A model generated the notes under the pieces. The model worked only from the letters and a program-made list of their open reading frames with translations, was not told the DNA's origin and made no database searches. This document shows positions 6,370-21,991 of a stretch of 36,284 bases of DNA, in pieces; the stretch's first letter is position 1; every line of letters begins with the position of its first letter. The position numbers and the translations under genes are program-made. This DNA comes from a virus. The DNA lies in the IMG/VR virus record IMGVR_UViG_3300021075_000001, positions 1 to 36,284 of that record; one strand, written 5' to 3'.

Positions 6370-7860
6370 TCACCCGAGGGAGATGGTGCGCACGCCACCG
6401 GTCGCGGCGAAGCTCGGGCCGGCGTCCGCCTGCGCCTCGGCAAGGAAGGTCGCCATGGCCAGCGCCACAGCGCCGTCGATCTTCTCGGCCTTGCTTGCTT
6501 TGCCGAGCCTCCAGCCCATCGGCTCGCGGGGCATCTCGATGGCGTTGAGGATGTGCTGCTTGATGGACGTGCCGCGGCCGGCGCGCAGACGCCCGGTGCG
6601 CACGAGCTCGCGGAGCGTCGCAGAGGCCGGGCACATGCGCGTGTTCGTCTGCCCGAACTCTTCGACGGGGATGCCGTGGTGGCGCTCCAGGCGCTGCATG
6701 AGAAGGAGCAGGCGGTTGGGGTCGAAGGCGATGCGCGCCACATTGCGCGTGCGGCAGAGTCCGGCGATGAACTCCTCGATCTCGTCGAGGTCGTAGTAGC
6801 CGGTGTCCTGCGGAGGTTCGTCGTAGATGTAGGGCTCGACGTGGTGCGTGCCGCCCGGATCACGGCGGTCGACGACGATGGCGAAGCAGTCTCCCTTGTT
6901 GGCGCCGTCCACGGCTATCACGCAGGGTTCATCGGGCTCGACCACGGGCGGCTTCTGGCATTGCTTCCACTCGCCCCAGCGGAAGGCGCGGCTGGCGTCA
7001 CTCGTCAACGGAAAGCGGTTCAGGTGGTACTGCTCGAACTGGGCGAGCGTGAGGCGCCTGTACTCGTCACGCAGGTACTCCCCAGTGATCCACGGCGCGA
7101 TGTTGACGGATCGCCATACCTTGGGATCGCCGGCGGCCTGATTGTCGCGGGCGCCCTGCCAGTAGAGGTAACCGCGGGGATCCTTCTTGATCGCCGCGAG
7201 CCACTCCCACAGCGGCCCCATGCGGGTCGGCCCGGCGGTCGTGATGCCGATGGTGAGCGGCTCCTCACGGCCGCCCATGCCGCTTCGCAGAGCGTTGACC
7301 ACGTCCATGTTCGGGTACGTGTGCGGCTCGTCGCAGATGGCGATGCGCGGGTGGATCGCCTGACCTGCGGCCGTCTTGTGGGGGATCACGTAGAACTTGG
7401 CGTCGATCTCGGGGATGTGGATCACGTTCTTGTAGACCTTCGCCAACTCCTTGAGAAGCGGGTTCTGCTCGACCATGGAGCTGGCGAAGCCGAGGATGAG
7501 GCGCGCCTGGTCTTCGTCGAAGGCGAGCGCCACGACCTCCTGCCCAACGACGGGCTCCATGAAGAGGAAGTACAGCGCGAGGCCGGCGGTGATCGTCGTC
7601 TTGGCGTGCTTCCTCGGCAGGCCGATAAGGGCCTCCGTGTACTTGCGCCGGCCGTACCTGTCGAGCGTCCCAAAGATGGGCTCAACGATGTGCTCGCTGG
7701 CGTAGTCGGGGAGGATGAACGGCTGCCCCGCCCAGCGGTCGTCTACGAGGCGGAGCTGCGTGCGGAAGAAGGCGTCGACCAGGAGCGGCCCTAGCTCCGC
7801 CCTCGTGACGCGGCCGCCGACCGCCTCAAGGATCGTCTCTCGGAGGTCGCTGGCTCTCAC
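6370..7860 (-). CDS. terL: Terminase large subunit
   Basis: A 496-residue packaging motor ATPase/nuclease of the Terminase_1 type. GLPRKHAKTT at residues ~80-89 is the Walker A region, with the atypical P-loop usual in this family. IAICDEPH at ~173-180 is Walker B with its catalytic Glu. ITTAG (~206-210) is the coupling motif. The nuclease domain has D318 in VIAVDGANKGD, a second Asp in IAFDPN, and KIDGAVALAMA near the C-terminus. The start is GTG 7858-7860 and overlaps the small subunit stop by 4 nt. A 55-base gap precedes the portal gene. Confidence 0.95.
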   Translation of the reverse strand: MRASDLRETILEAVGGRVTRAELGPLLVDAFFRTQLRLVDDRWAGQPFILPDYASEHIVEPIFGTLDRYGRRKYTEALIGLPRKHAKTTITAGLALYFLFMEPVVGQEVVALAFDEDQARLILGFASSMVEQNPLLKELAKVYKNVIHIPEIDAKFYVIPHKTAAGQAIHPRIAICDEPHTYPNMDVVNALRSGMGGREEPLTIGITTAGPTRMGPLWEWLAAIKKDPRGYLYWQGARDNQAAGDPKVWRSVNIAPWITGEYLRDEYRRLTLAQFEQYHLNRFPLTSDASRAFRWGEWKQCQKPPVVEPDEPCVIAVDGANKGDCFAIVVDRRDPGGTHHVEPYIYDEPPQDTGYYDLDEIEEFIAGLCRTRNVARIAFDPNRLLLLMQRLERHHGIPVEEFGQTNTRMCPASATLRELVRTGRLRAGRGTSIKQHILNAIEMPREPMGWRLGKASKAEKIDGAVALAMATFLAEAQADAGPSFAATGGVRTISLG

Positions 7861-8360
7861 TTTCCCGAAGCGATCTGCGCCACGATCGCCTCAGCGATGC
7901 CGGAGTGGAGGTCCTTCATGAGGCTCTGGCCGGCGAGCCGCAGGAGCCCGGCGCGCAGACGAGCGACGAAGGTAAGCGCGTACTGGTCGGCGATTCGCAG
8001 GTAGAACGTGCCCTCGTCGCGTGCCACCTTGAGCATGGGATTCACCTTGGGTCCGAACGGCGTCTCAACCACCATGCCGTCCCGCTCGATGTACTCCTGC
8101 GCCTGCTGGTGCCGGTACAGTGACCAAGCCATCATGCGCAGCGCCTCAAGGTCCGTGTCGTTCAGGCGCCCGGCGAGCTCGCCGACGGCGCGCGTGAAGA
8201 TGTCGCGGGGCAGGCCCTGAGGCAGCTCCCCGGCGATGACCTCGGCAAGGCCGGGCTCGACGACCTGCGGCACGACCTTCGTGGTCTTCTGGCCCTGCTG
8301 CGGGGCGTGCCCGGTGCCGCGCCGAGCGCGGCTGGGGTCCGGTTTGCGACCGCGCGTCAT
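7857..8360 (-). CDS. terS: Terminase small subunit, P27 family
   Basis: A 167-residue small terminase resembling the P27 family. It has a basic N-terminus with MTRGRKPDPSRARRGTGHAP, the helix LEALRMMAWSLYRHQQAQEY, then GPKVNPMLKVARDEGTFYLR and a helical C-terminus. Small terminase recognises the packaging site and recruits the large subunit. The ATG is coupled by a 4-nt overlap to the zinc-finger gene above and by another to terL below. Confidence 0.88.
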   Translation of the reverse strand: MTRGRKPDPSRARRGTGHAPQQGQKTTKVVPQVVEPGLAEVIAGELPQGLPRDIFTRAVGELAGRLNDTDLEALRMMAWSLYRHQQAQEYIERDGMVVETPFGPKVNPMLKVARDEGTFYLRIADQYALTFVARLRAGLLRLAGQSLMKDLHSGIAEAIVAQIASGK

Positions 8361-8737
8361 GGCGAGACGTCGCGGAAGTAGCGTTGCAGGGCGGCCTCGA
8401 TCGCGTCGGCCATGCCCGCGCAGCGCCAGGCGAACTGGCGGCGAGCCTCGACGCCGAGGCGGCGGTAGGAAACGACCAGGAGAAGGGTCTCGTGCACGGC
8501 GGAGAGCACCTGGTCGTCGGGTTCAGCGGATCGGCCCACGAGGAAAGCCTCGACGACCGCGGCGTCAGGAGCCTCCGGCGAGTTGGCCGAGTCGGCGCCG
8601 AAGACTGCACGTTTGGCGCGGCCCGCGGCGATCCTGCAGCTATCGCGGCAGTAGCGGCGCCGTCGGCCGGTCACCGCTGCAGCCGGAAGATCACCCCCGC
8701 AGAACTGACAAATGCTGATCTCGAGTTTTGGCGCCAC
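8357..8737 (-). CDS. Small zinc-finger protein, first gene of the late operon
   Basis: A 126-residue protein with an N-terminal treble-clef-like zinc site: ICQFCGG near residue 10, then RRRYCRDSCRIAAGRAKR near residue 30. A helical remainder follows, with VEAFLVGRSAEPDDQVLSAV. The start is GTG 8735-8737, since no in-frame ATG lies upstream. It overlaps terS by 4 nt. A role in packaging-site recognition or late gene regulation is possible but is inferred only from position. No homologue is recognised by name. Confidence 0.7.
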   Translation of the reverse strand: MAPKLEISICQFCGGDLPAAAVTGRRRRYCRDSCRIAAGRAKRAVFGADSANSPEAPDAAVVEAFLVGRSAEPDDQVLSAVHETLLLVVSYRRLGVEARRQFAWRCAGMADAIEAALQRYFRDVSP

Positions 8738-8748
8738 TCGCCCATGGT

Positions 8749-8779
8749 GCGTTTCGTGTCACCGGGGGGGGCGTTTCGT
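8749..8779. promoter_or_regulatory. Direct repeats GCGTTTCGT upstream of the terminase operon
   Basis: GCGTTTCGT occurs at 8749-8757 and 8771-8779 in the same orientation, 22 bp apart (two helical turns). A run of eight G residues (8764-8771) lies between them. The pair sits just upstream of the first late gene. It could be an operator, an activator site, or a terminase-binding (pac/cos) site. The function is not determined. Confidence 0.45.
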
Positions 8780-8794
8780 AACAGCGTGGCTAGA

Positions 8795-8816
8795 CCCCGA
8801 CTCCCCAGAATCGGGG
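8795..8816 (-). terminator. Alternative hairpins between integrase and late genes
   Basis: CCCCGA (8795-8800) can pair with TCGGGG (8811-8816), and CCCC (8803-8806) can instead pair with GGGG (8813-8816). These mutually exclusive stems resemble an attenuator or weak terminator for transcripts arriving from int. There is no T-run on the minus strand. Confidence 0.35.
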
Positions 8817-8895
8817 GAATACATGCGGAGGGGTAGGCAGGGTCGGCGTTGCGCGACTGCCGTGATGCTAGGGGGTACCCGGTGCCGTCACTCAG

Positions 8896-8915
8896 TTGGA
8901 CGCGAGTTGGACGCG
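8896..8915. promoter_or_regulatory. Candidate integrase arm sites, P arm (2 x TTGGACGCG)
   Basis: TTGGACGCG occurs at 8896-8904 and 8907-8915, spaced exactly 11 bp. The same 9-mer recurs as an 11-bp-spaced pair on the other side of the tRNA-like core (9151-9159, 9162-9170). Paired direct repeats flanking a core are the usual layout of arm-type sites bound by the N-terminal domain of tyrosine integrases. Confidence 0.65.
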
Positions 8916-8994
8916 AGTTTGCTTGGATTCACTGGACTCTGCTCGCTCGAGGAGCCCATCCTGCCCGCAGCCAAGGCGCGGAAAGACGGCCGTC

Positions 8995-9026
8995 TCAGGC
9001 ACGAATCAGGCACGAATCAGGCAGAA
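8995..9026. promoter_or_regulatory. Triple 11-bp direct repeat (candidate excisionase sites)
   Basis: TCAGGCACGAA is present at 8995-9005 and 9006-9016, followed by TCAGGCAGAA at 9017-9026. The array lies between the left arm pair and the core. Head-to-tail sites in phase with the DNA helix are how small excisionases assemble cooperative filaments, so this is a candidate Xis-binding array. Confidence 0.55.
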
Positions 9027-9053
9027 TAGGGTGGGAGCGGGTGGAGTGCGTGG

Positions 9054-9079
9054 TGGTGGGCGACGTTGGAATTGAACCA
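9054..9079 (-). other. Candidate attP core: 3' end of a tRNA gene
   Basis: Read on the minus strand, this is a tRNA 3' end. It has GG, then the T-loop TTCAATT (fits TTCRANY), the T-stem half CCAAC, acceptor half GTCGCCC, discriminator A and CCA. The 5' T-stem half does not pair fully and no matching GGGCGAC acceptor lies upstream, so it is not a whole tRNA. It starts 26 bases past the int stop. Such tRNA 3'-end identity restores the host tRNA on integration. The host gene would have acceptor 5' GGGCGAC; its amino-acid identity is not determined. Confidence 0.72.
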
Positions 9080-9104: not shown

Positions 9105-10301
9105 TCATTTGCAGGCACGACGCTCTGCCAGTTCGTCTAGCGGCTCGCTCTTGGACGCGCCTTGGACGCGAGTTTGGCTCGCTGCCTCGCTCCAGACCAC
9201 GTCAAGACGCTCCGCCGCGGCCTTGCGATCGCCGTCCGTGACGTGCCCGTAGACGCCCAGCGTGGTCGCGACGTGAGCATGCCCAAGGTGCGCCGCGACC
9301 ACGTCCATGCGCTCCCCGGCGCGCAGCAACTCAGTGGCCACCATGTGCCGCAGCGCGTGGAAGTGCAGCGGCGCGAGTCCGCGGCGACGGATGCGCTTGC
9401 CGAGCTCGTGGGTGAAGCCGTCAGGGATGATGGGCTGTCCGCGCCTGCCGCAGCAGATGAGCGCCTCCGGCGACCACATGCCGAGAGCCTTGCGCTCTGC
9501 CTGCAGCGTCGTGAGCATGGCGATGCAGGCTGCAGGTAGGGGCACCGCGCGGCGACCGGCGCGCGACTTCGGTGGTCGGACCTCAAGCGTCGCCCTGTTG
9601 TGGCCAGTGAGGCCCCTGGAGATGTTCACCGTGCCGCCTGCCATGTCCACGTCCATCCAGCGCAGCGCCAGCACCTCGCCGCGCCGCATGCCTGTCGTGG
9701 CGCCAATCATGAGCGCCGGCCAGAGGCGCGTCTGCGACAGGGATGCGATGTACTGCTGAGCCGTGGCCACAGATGGCGCCTCCGTGCGGCGCTCGGGCAG
9801 CCGAGGAGCACGCACTGCGGACACAGGGTTCACGCTCACCAGGCCAAGCTCGAGCGCCCAGGCGTAAGCGGCGTGCAGCGTGCCGCGGTAGTTGCGCACG
9901 CTCTTGGGAGCGCAGCCGGCTGCTAGCTGCGCGGCCTGCCACGCGGCGATCTCGGCGGGCGTGAGGTCTGCGGCAGGCACGTCGCCGAGCGTAGGCGCGA
10001 TGTGCGTGACGGCGTGCTCGTGGCTGCGAACTGTGTTGGCCGCCTTGTCAGGGCGGGCGGCGTCGCGGAGGAAGCGCTCGAGCAGCTCGGCGACCGTCTC
10101 GTCTGTGGCGCATGCCTCCTCCTCTCCGCGTAGCCTCTTGAGAAGAGCCTCAAGGGCAGGCTCGGCCTCGGCCTTGAGACGCCGGTAGGTGCCTCCGTTC
10201 ACCCAGCCGCTGCCGCCCTCGCGCTTGCCGACGAAGACGCGGACGCGGTAGGTGACCTTGCCGTTGATGGGCGACACGCGCCGCTGGATTGAGCCGGTCA
10301 T
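9105..10301 (-). CDS. int: Tyrosine integrase
   Basis: A 398-residue tyrosine recombinase. The N-terminal ~60 residues form the arm-binding domain (SPINGKVTYRVRVFVGKREG). The core-binding SAM-like domain is ~65-165. The catalytic domain carries R206 (ATTGMRRGE), K245 (RPPKS), H315 and R318 (HFHALRH), H341 (HLGH) and the nucleophile Y351 (GVYGHVT). All catalytic residues are present. The ATG overlaps the upstream stop by 4 nt, so int is the last gene of the early operon. The stop lies beside the tRNA-derived core, and the last codons carry two repeats that look like arm sites. It drives integration and, with an excisionase, excision. Confidence 0.95.
   Translation of the reverse strand: MTGSIQRRVSPINGKVTYRVRVFVGKREGGSGWVNGGTYRRLKAEAEPALEALLKRLRGEEEACATDETVAELLERFLRDAARPDKAANTVRSHEHAVTHIAPTLGDVPAADLTPAEIAAWQAAQLAAGCAPKSVRNYRGTLHAAYAWALELGLVSVNPVSAVRAPRLPERRTEAPSVATAQQYIASLSQTRLWPALMIGATTGMRRGEVLALRWMDVDMAGGTVNISRGLTGHNRATLEVRPPKSRAGRRAVPLPAACIAMLTTLQAERKALGMWSPEALICCGRRGQPIIPDGFTHELGKRIRRRGLAPLHFHALRHMVATELLRAGERMDVVAAHLGHAHVATTLGVYGHVTDGDRKAAAERLDVVWSEAASQTRVQGASKSEPLDELAERRACK
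9151..9170. promoter_or_regulatory. Candidate integrase arm sites, P' arm (2 x TTGGACGCG)
   Basis: TTGGACGCG occurs at 9151-9159 and 9162-9170, spaced 11 bp, in the same orientation as the pair at 8896-8915. This pair lies inside the last codons of int, about 72 bp from the core. The left pair is about 139 bp away. Confidence 0.65.
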
Positions 10302-17286: not shown

Positions 17287-17934
17287 TCAGACTCCCCTGA
17301 GGTAGCGGTACAGGTGCAGGCAGGCCAGGAACGCGCCGTAGTCCTGCGTGTGATTCGTGTGCTCGTGAAAGCGCGCCGGGCCGTCTGCGTCCATCGGGAC
17401 GTGGAGGATGCCGCGGCGGCACGCCTTCTTGGTGAACCCGTAGTCGCCAAGCAGCGGCAGGGTGGCCTCTCTGTAAGCGGATGTCTGAAGGTTCATCTCG
17501 CGGTAGAGGCCCTTGCCGCTTTTCACATCAACCACGGTCGGCTCCTTGTCGCCCTTGAAGCGCAGCAGAAAGTCGAGCGCGCCGGCGTACTGGGCCGGGT
17601 AGTTCGCCACCATCAACTCGACCGCGTACACCTCGGCCACGTACTGCTCGTACCAGTCCGTGAAGGCGTCGAGCTGTGCCTGCGCCGGGGCGTCTTCGTC
17701 GCCCATGGGGATGGACGGCACGCCCTCGACGACCAGAGCGGCCAGTGCGTGCACCAGGGTGCCCCTGGTAGCCGCCTTGGTGCGCACGCGCTCGGCCTCG
17801 GCGTTGCCCAGCTCGCCGATCCACTTCTCGAGGCCGGGCTTGCGGATGACGCTGCCGATCACCGTGGTGACCGACACAAAGTTGGCGCCGTTCACTGAGT
17901 AACGGTGCTCGGCGTCCCGCTGGATGTCGATCAT
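17287..17934 (-). CDS. PD-(D/E)XK exonuclease of the recombination module
   Basis: A 215-residue nuclease from ATG 17932-17934 (4-nt overlap). The active site is the PD-(D/E)XK type of RecB/Cas4-like phage exonucleases: H62 in RGTLVHALAAL, E106, D121 in YAGALDFLL, then VVDVKSGKG (D136, K138). Q150 and Y154 form the QxxxY motif (NLQTSAYREA). It probably degrades one strand from double-strand ends to feed Bet, by analogy with lambda Exo and Redbeta. Confidence 0.88.
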   Translation of the reverse strand: MIDIQRDAEHRYSVNGANFVSVTTVIGSVIRKPGLEKWIGELGNAEAERVRTKAATRGTLVHALAALVVEGVPSIPMGDEDAPAQAQLDAFTDWYEQYVAEVYAVELMVANYPAQYAGALDFLLRFKGDKEPTVVDVKSGKGLYREMNLQTSAYREATLPLLGDYGFTKKACRRGILHVPMDADGPARFHEHTNHTQDYGAFLACLHLYRYLRGV

Positions 17935-18431
17935 GGTCGCACCTGCTCTGAGAAGTTGAGCAGTGCGAACTCTCCCCAACGCTCAGCAGCGGCTGCGTCA
18001 TACGCCTCGGCAGCATCCAGCTCGCTGGCGAATCTTCCGAGGAACGCCCCCGGAGTCCCGTGGCGGCCAATCTGTGCCGCCCATGCCTGCCTGCTCCGGT
18101 CCCAATAGACGCCCTTGAACGCGGAGCTGCCCCGGGTCTTGCGTTGGTTCGCGAGGTTCTCCGTCTGCGTGCAGAGGCGGAGATTGGACCGCCTGTTGTC
18201 CAGAGGGTCGTGGTTGATGTGGTCGACCAGCATCCCCTCCGGGGCGTCAAGCAGCGCCCTGTGCATGAGGATCATCGAGTGCTGGCCGCGCTCCCACACG
18301 TTGCGAATCGCCACGAGCTCGCCGTTGCGCCCGCGCGTTGTCGCGCACCACTTCCACTGGCTCAACCACTCGTGGTCAGCTTCGTCAACGATGGCGACGC
18401 GGCCTTGGGTGAGCGTGATGGTGGCGCTCAC
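17931..18431 (-). CDS. HNH endonuclease with AP2 DNA-binding domain (copy 1)
   Basis: A 166-residue homing-type endonuclease. The HNH part has QHSMILMHRALLDAPEGMLV, then DHINHDPLDNRRSNLRLCT. The C-terminal AP2-like domain is KGVYWDRSRQAWAAQIGRHG, then LGRFASELDAAEAYDAAAAE and FALLNF. It is paralogous to the gene at 20751-21257. It starts at GTG 18429-18431 in a 4-nt GTGA overlap and ends in another with the exonuclease, so it is fully built into the operon. Confidence 0.92.
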   Translation of the reverse strand: MSATITLTQGRVAIVDEADHEWLSQWKWCATTRGRNGELVAIRNVWERGQHSMILMHRALLDAPEGMLVDHINHDPLDNRRSNLRLCTQTENLANQRKTRGSSAFKGVYWDRSRQAWAAQIGRHGTPGAFLGRFASELDAAEAYDAAAAERWGEFALLNFSEQVRP

Positions 18432-20662: not shown

Positions 20663-20751
20663 GAGTGCATCCCTGCCCAGAAGAAGACGAAGGCAACGCA
20701 GAGACCGAGCCACGCGAGGGTGACGACGGCTGTCCAGTCCCAGAACCCCAT
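20659..20751 (-). CDS. Very small membrane protein, 30 aa
   Basis: ATG 20749-20751 overlaps the HNH gene stop by one base (TGATG). The 30-residue product MGFWDWTAVVTLAWLGLCVA plus FVFFWAGMHS is one hydrophobic span. It is coupled to the next gene by GTGA. It may be a second small lysis component such as a pinholin or antiholin, but that is inference from location. Confidence 0.55.
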   Translation of the reverse strand: MGFWDWTAVVTLAWLGLCVAFVFFWAGMHS

Positions 20752-21257
20752 CACTCCACCGCCTCCACCGCCGGGTCGCCCGGGAAGTTGGTCAAGGCGA
20801 ACTCTCCGAACGTGGTCCGTGCCGCGTCGTCGTACGCACGGGCTGCGTCTTCTTCTCTGGCGTACTCTCCGAGGTAGACTCTCTGTCCCTTCACTCCGAT
20901 GTGAGCCACCCACATTTGGTGCCGATTGTTTCGATACACGCCCTTGTACTGCGACACCCCACGAGCCTTTCGTTGGTTGCCGTTGTTCTGCGTGCGAGTG
21001 CACAGGCGCAGGTTCGCGCGCCGGTTGTCGAGGCCGTCGCCGTTGATGTGGTCGACCTCTTGCCCAGGACCGGGCAGCATGATTGTGCGGTGCATGCGTT
21101 GAGATGAGCGAGTACCCTTCACGTGGGTCGTCCGTGCGGGATATCGCCCCGCATCAGAGTGCCAGTTCCAATGCGACAGCATCTCGAAGTCGGCAGCGTC
21201 GACCACGGCAACGCGGCCTTGCGTCAGGGGGATAGTGCGGGTAGTAGAATCGCGCAT
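20751..21257 (-). CDS. HNH endonuclease with AP2 DNA-binding domain (copy 2)
   Basis: A 168-residue homing-type endonuclease from ATG 21255-21257, with GAGG upstream. Domain order is as in copy 1: QRMHRTIMLPGPGQEVDHIN, then DNRRANLRLCTRTQNNGNQR, and the AP2 part KGVYRNNRHQMWVAHIGVKG with LGEYAREEDAARAYDDAART and FALTNF. The motif order, the TLTQGRVA/PLTQGRVA N-terminus and the NF ending match copy 1 closely. A strong hairpin lies just upstream of its start. Confidence 0.92.
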   Translation of the reverse strand: MRDSTTRTIPLTQGRVAVVDAADFEMLSHWNWHSDAGRYPARTTHVKGTRSSQRMHRTIMLPGPGQEVDHINGDGLDNRRANLRLCTRTQNNGNQRKARGVSQYKGVYRNNRHQMWVAHIGVKGQRVYLGEYAREEDAARAYDDAARTTFGEFALTNFPGDPAVEAVE

Positions 21258-21286
21258 GTCACGACCTCTCATCAGGTGGTGGCCAC

Positions 21287-21315
21287 GCCCCCGGCAGTTT
21301 CCGCTGCGCGGGGGC
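21287..21315 (-). terminator. Strong hairpin between transglycosylase and HNH genes
   Basis: GCCCCCGGCAG (21287-21297) pairs with CTGCGCGGGGGC (21304-21315) with one bulged base and a 6-base loop. It lies in the 83-base gap between the transglycosylase stop (21341) and the HNH start (21257). It may limit read-through from the lysis genes into the HNH gene. No T-run follows. Confidence 0.5.
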
Positions 21316-21340
21316 ACTCTGTACCCCACCATTCTATCAG

Positions 21341-21991
21341 CTACAGCGCCCAAGGACTCCACCCAGCAACACGGTACAGCCGCAGTCCTTCACGCAGGTT
21401 GTACTCAGGATCGAAGAGCCGCCATGGCTGCGAGACGTTCGACGGGAGGATCTGGAGTAATCCAGCGCACCCCGACGACGGGTTGAGCGCCCGCGCCCTG
21501 CCCGAGCTTTCGCGGTTCACGATGTAGCAGAGATTCGGCAGGGTCGACTCGCTCCACCCCACGTACCTCATCAAGGGTTTCCATCGGATGCCACTCGACG
21601 AGCCGCCCGGGTGGCGCATGCGCTCAAGAAGTCGGCGGGACTTGAGCTTGTAGTCTCGAAGCTGACGATGCCAACGCTGGCCAGCGTGCAGCCAGACGCA
21701 TTCGCTGCATGAACGTAATGGACGTCGCCCGATCCTGCTGTGAACAGTTCGCAGGAAACAGGCTGCGGCGTGCCGGTACGAGCGTAGTGCCCCGACGGCG
21801 CGGTGACGGGACTTGAGTGCCCGGAGCACGACGCCGTCCGAGGCGGGGACTGTCGCTGTGGTCTCGCCCGAGGCGAAGGCGTCCGGCTGGGGCGGCGGTT
21901 CAGAGCGCGCAGCCCCAGGATGAGTGCCCACCAGGAGCAGAAGCCCCAGAGATACCAGAGTGATCGTGAGTGCGATAGGTCCACGCCACAT
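21341..21991 (-). CDS. Secreted lytic transglycosylase (SLT-like)
   Basis: A 216-residue protein from ATG 21989-21991, with GGGGAG upstream. The N-terminus MWRGPIALTITLVSLGLLLL followed by VGTHPG is a signal peptide or anchor. The C-terminal ~75 residues match the goose-type/SLT transglycosylase fold: MRYVGWSESTLPNLCYIVNR, the catalytic Glu in NRESSGRARALNPSSGCAG, and LLQILPSN. The middle is basic, with Cys pairs. Located beside the amidase and holin, it probably cleaves glycan strands during lysis. A signal-anchor-release mechanism is possible. Confidence 0.78.
   Translation of the reverse strand: MWRGPIALTITLVSLGLLLLVGTHPGAARSEPPPQPDAFASGETTATVPASDGVVLRALKSRHRAVGALRSYRHAAACFLRTVHSRIGRRPLRSCSECVWLHAGQRWHRQLRDYKLKSRRLLERMRHPGGSSSGIRWKPLMRYVGWSESTLPNLCYIVNRESSGRARALNPSSGCAGLLQILPSNVSQPWRLFDPEYNLREGLRLYRVAGWSPWAL

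Follow-up and report, generated by a model that had tools for sequence, protein, structure and literature searches.

Phage Ms6 has an attP with a 26-base core drawn from the 3' end of a tRNA-Ala. Full identity across this core is important, as is the 7-bp T-loop that it contains (PMC1762012). In the published scheme such T-loop sites form class II. Mycobacteriophage L5 represents class I, whose cores begin at the anticodon loop (PMC1762012). Sites of the L5 type also carry the tRNA 3' end and rebuild the gene. A rarer 5'-distal, or reversed, type of tRNA attachment site is noted in a passage of PMC6563490 that cites Zhao and Williams 2002.

We analysed a stretch of viral DNA of 36,284 nucleotides, hereafter called the window. 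At positions 9054 to 9079, on the minus strand, the window contains TGGTTCAATTCCAACGTCGCCCACCA, an exact match to the 3' end of tRNA-Val(GAC) genes in one order of Thermoleophilia. We consider it very probable that this is the attP common core of a temperate tailed phage, which uses a tyrosine integrase to target the 3' end of tRNA-Val(GAC) in that uncultured order. On the minus strand the core consists of TGG (the final three bases on the 5' side of the T-stem), the T-loop TTCAATT (9070 to 9076), CCAAC from the T-stem, the acceptor strand GTCGCCC, a discriminator A and CCA. The first-pass annotation had read these bases as the T-loop, T-stem half, acceptor half and encoded CCA of a tRNA with acceptor GGGCGAC. 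Both the minus-strand letters and ten host genes bear this out. In hosts reading ACCAC, one further base (9053) extends the identity to 27 nt at 100%. The phage copy at 9048 to 9057 (minus strand) is ACCACCACGC, and in hosts ACCA is followed by other bases. Hence, a second encoded CCA would follow the rebuilt tRNA.

The block of identity starts at the junction of T-stem and T-loop, not at the anticodon loop. The host T-stem is GTTGG and the phage has CATGG, so that the first mismatch falls at T-stem position 50. Judged by where identity starts, the window attP is a class II site. Like Ms6, it combines a 26-base core from a tRNA 3' end, a 7-bp T-loop inside that core, an integrase and an actinobacterial host. 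Unlike Ms6, it matches tRNA-Val(GAC) rather than tRNA-Ala, its host is placed in Thermoleophilia rather than mycobacteria, its core ends with CCA and its integration is predicted. The L5 type is similar in that the phage brings along a tRNA 3' end with which the gene is rebuilt, but the window block begins at the end of the T-stem.

Potential hosts were sought among genomes of 84,980 species of bacteria and archaea. In this collection a 21-nt inner part of the core, GGTTCAATTCCAACGTCGCCC, matched only 11 contigs, labelled as Thermoleophilia, Actinobacteria, Actinomycetes or Actinomycetota MAGs. Ten of these contain an intact tRNA-Val(GAC) gene, GGGCGACTAGCTCAGTTGGGAGAGCGC...GTTGGTTCAATTCCAACGTCGCCCACCA, with the acceptor start GGGCGAC. 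The eleventh (L008) begins inside a tRNA-Val gene, at the contig end. Two contigs (L012 and L014) come from the same MAG; hence, the 11 contigs represent ten genomes. All ten fall in one uncultured Thermoleophilia order, which includes MAGs UBA2241 and UBA6103 and for which 15 genomes were searched. The other five genomes of the order have versions of the core with 1–3 mismatches and no exact core. Across 399 sampled Thermoleophilia genomes, the exact core occurs in 10, all in this order. Thus, the search for host tRNA genes with this 3' end, which the first-pass annotation had proposed, succeeded: it returned ten tRNA-Val(GAC) genes from one order, a narrow host set. A 26-nt match that adjoins an integrase and is restricted to a single host order is, on these sequence grounds, no chance event. 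We conclude that the most likely host, as predicted from the match, is the order holding MAG UBA2241. According to a review of host prediction, very short exact matches give little signal by themselves, but deserve more confidence when an integrase lies nearby and the target is a tRNA (PMC5831537). Both features are present here.

The next best target in these hosts is tRNA-Val(CAC), with 2–3 mismatches, some of them within the T-loop. Mismatches in the T-loop strongly lower integration in Ms6 (PMC1762012), and tRNA-Val(CAC) is unlikely to be a second target.

Genomes of the order also contain prophage genes that resemble those of the phage. In one region of about 36 kb (G005:C26) we found homologues of the phage RecT (41%), tape measure protein, a tail gene, two recT neighbours and the integrase. 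Elsewhere, a homologue of a replication-region gene (45%) adjoins an integrase (G001:C34). These resemblances give the host assignment independent support. Homologues of the large terminase subunit (TerL) at E<=1e-30 were absent from the 15 genomes of the order. The collection covers about half of GTDB species, and the phage might use the same attP in a host from an unsampled group that shares the tRNA end. We regard this as improbable: among the 84,980 species the exact end is present only in this order, the order's prophage genes resemble the phage, and the phage GC content of 67.6% compares with 69–73% for the host contigs.

MAG G006 has two contigs (L012 and L014) that come together at the tRNA. 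Positions 1-141 of each form an exact overlap of 141 bp, and both contigs break just after the tRNA-Val gene. Such an overlap is typical of an assembly graph with a branch point immediately behind the gene. It suggests that the population includes an alternative form of the site, which may be occupied; one cause could be an element that only some members carry there.

The integrase encoded beside the core (398 amino acids; 9105 to 10301, minus strand) is a tyrosine recombinase by its matches to PF00589 (E 1.7e-22) and to the PHROG integrase family (2.8e-63). It also matches solved chains of integrases and Xer recombinases. The catalytic set is complete, comprising R206, K245, H315, R318 (HxxR), H341 and Y351. 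The core lies 25 bp beyond the stop codon (9105 to 9107).

Tandem repeats flank the core. The 9-mer TTGGACGCG has exactly four copies in the genome, at 8896, 8907, 9151 and 9162. These form two pairs on the plus strand, with 11 bp between starts, one on either side of the core. The pair at 8896 to 8915 is on the side opposite the integrase gene and is conserved in a relative (L018/L066); the pair at 9151 to 9170 is inside the 3' end of int. Four copies of a 9-mer within 380 bp arose in 2 of 20,000 simulations with sequence of the same composition, although repeat-rich tail-gene coding regions elsewhere in the window also have 9-mers four times within 380 bp. From the repeats, we predict that the TTGGACGCG pairs are arm-type integrase sites flanking the core. 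AGGCACGAATC occurs twice in tandem, again with 11-bp spacing (8997 and 9008; 8997 to 9018, plus strand), and these copies could be further arm sites or excisionase sites.

The genome ends in an exact terminal repeat of 127 bp, and a relative contig from another metagenome (G012) aligns contiguously across the end junction. Hence, this is a circular genome with an unrecombined attP. The first-pass annotation had held that integrated relatives at another location would speak against its reading. The only close integrase relative, 95% identical, has the same unrecombined attP.

We found no integrated copy of the phage, with attL and attR, and no read across either junction; the searched genomes cover each species by a single genome and the order by few members, so that a prophage could have been missed. 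Likewise, none of the 11 genome matches was an attR copy, and the tRNA-bearing contigs had no integrase match. This lack of an integrated copy in any searched genome would be expected if the core were a disused relic, left by a past integration or by captured host DNA, in a phage that integrates elsewhere or not at all. That explanation is hard to reconcile with the core itself. The 26–27 nt are unchanged though phage and hosts differ elsewhere, the same core is unchanged in a relative (L002/L018), the integrase is intact and paired repeats surround the core. We think a relic very improbable. Returning to a functional attP, we infer that the phage does integrate and establish lysogeny.

ARAGORN detects no tRNA gene in the window; hence, the core copy is a 3' fragment only. 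Searching Rfam at the core gave no tRNA or other RNA family above chance. tRNA genes are common in phages, and the fragment has an entire 3' end with CCA. Even so, we can virtually dismiss the idea that it is part of a tRNA or tRNA-like element encoded by the phage and not of an attP: neither ARAGORN nor Rfam finds a tRNA, the upstream bases CATCAT are unable to form a T-stem, and the upstream int end is no more similar to a tRNA 5' half than shuffled sequences can be. Near the 3' end of int, CTGGCAGAGC (minus strand, about 9120 to 9135) was considered as the decayed 5' half of a tRNA and rejected; 186 of 5000 shuffles reach its alignment score, and other places in the window match better.

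With the core as a working attP, integration would proceed as follows. The integrase would bind the predicted arm sites, the TTGGACGCG pairs, on both sides, together with the core. Strand exchange would most likely take place in the 7-bp T-loop TTCAATT, given its position in the tRNA and the suggestive precedent of Ms6 (PMC1762012). The host gene would lose its 3' part and gain the identical one borne by the phage. A working tRNA, reading toward the terminase genes, would then stay at one end of the prophage. The other end, adjoining the 3' end of int, would be marked by the displaced 3' part.

We built these junctions in silico using a host contig (L009) and the phage flanks. In the joined sequences, attL contains a complete tRNA-Val(GAC), whereas attR has no tRNA. 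Behind the rebuilt tRNA, all in the same direction on the minus strand, are a 316-bp stretch with no assigned gene (8738 to 9053), a small gene of unassigned function (8357 to 8737), the small terminase subunit TerS (7857 to 8360; PF05119) and TerL (6370 to 7860; PF03354 and PF20441). The small gene has a homologue with 50% identity in the predicted host order (G002:C315). No terminator was found on the minus strand between the core and the terminase genes, the 316-bp stretch included. The earlier expectation that transcription of the rebuilt tRNA would run toward the terminase genes holds geometrically, since the in silico junction leads along the minus strand from 9053 to 8357 and on to TerS and TerL. 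In this layout int is at the far end of the prophage, adjoining the displaced tRNA tail. The integrase relatives found in the host order are arranged differently. Six adjoin a tRNA and point toward it; a seventh follows a tRNA in the same direction. The window differs in having int at the displaced end, in a comparison where the sample shows only tRNA-proximal cases.

Other phages also carry parts of tRNA genes. Five viral contigs (L001 and L003–L006) have the same tRNA-Val 3' end in a longer block of identity, of about 47–53 nt, that starts in the anticodon arm. The integrase beside this block is only 26–28% identical to that of the window. Hence, with a distant integrase at the same tRNA end on five contigs, the tRNA-Val(GAC) gene is a repeated target. 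Assigned from the extent of their blocks, these sites are class I (anticodon loop) in the published scheme. They represent a separate phage group, with repeated TGACACA motifs around the core. L001 and L003 match one host variant of the anticodon stem and L004–L006 match another.

Two terminase relatives, L072 and L073 (TerL 87% and 79% identical, respectively), have a 45-nt block from the 5' half of tRNA-Thr(TGT) of the same order, which lends the host assignment further independent support. These blocks, at 1180-1224 in L072 and 3454-3499 in L073 (minus strand), begin where a different integrase, in inverted orientation, has its stop codon. The two phages are like the window in their related terminase genes and in a tRNA-matching block that adjoins a tyrosine integrase. 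They are unlike it in having the different, inverted integrase and a 5'-distal site with a tRNA 5' half. This tRNA-Thr(TGT) half is less order-specific, because other viral contigs have it as part of full tRNA genes.

Away from the attachment site, two window proteins of 166 and 203 amino acids (17931 to 18431 and 20751 to 21362, minus strand) match the same stretch of an otherwise different phage (L044; 46% and 40%, respectively). Since they match the same stretch, both probably belong to one family present in two copies. They may perhaps be mobile homing-type genes.

The prophage layout and the relatives together permit a speculative reading, which we put forward as rather unlikely. The late genes, terminase first, would lie directly behind the rebuilt tRNA-Val with no recognisable terminator. 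The host tRNA promoter might then feed low-level late transcription, or the phage would have to block it by an unrecognised signal. Within the phage group, the integration module would have been swapped between 3'-half tRNA-Val sites and reversed 5'-half tRNA-Thr sites while the host order stayed the same.

The mechanism proposed here is ordinary and well known; the host assignment and the target are new. A limited literature search found no papers centred on prophages of Thermoleophilia. The results also show two distant integrase lineages using one tRNA gene of this order, each at its own sub-site. For the phage itself, an uncultured virus gains an order-level host from sequence alone, together with an exact target gene that can be tested.
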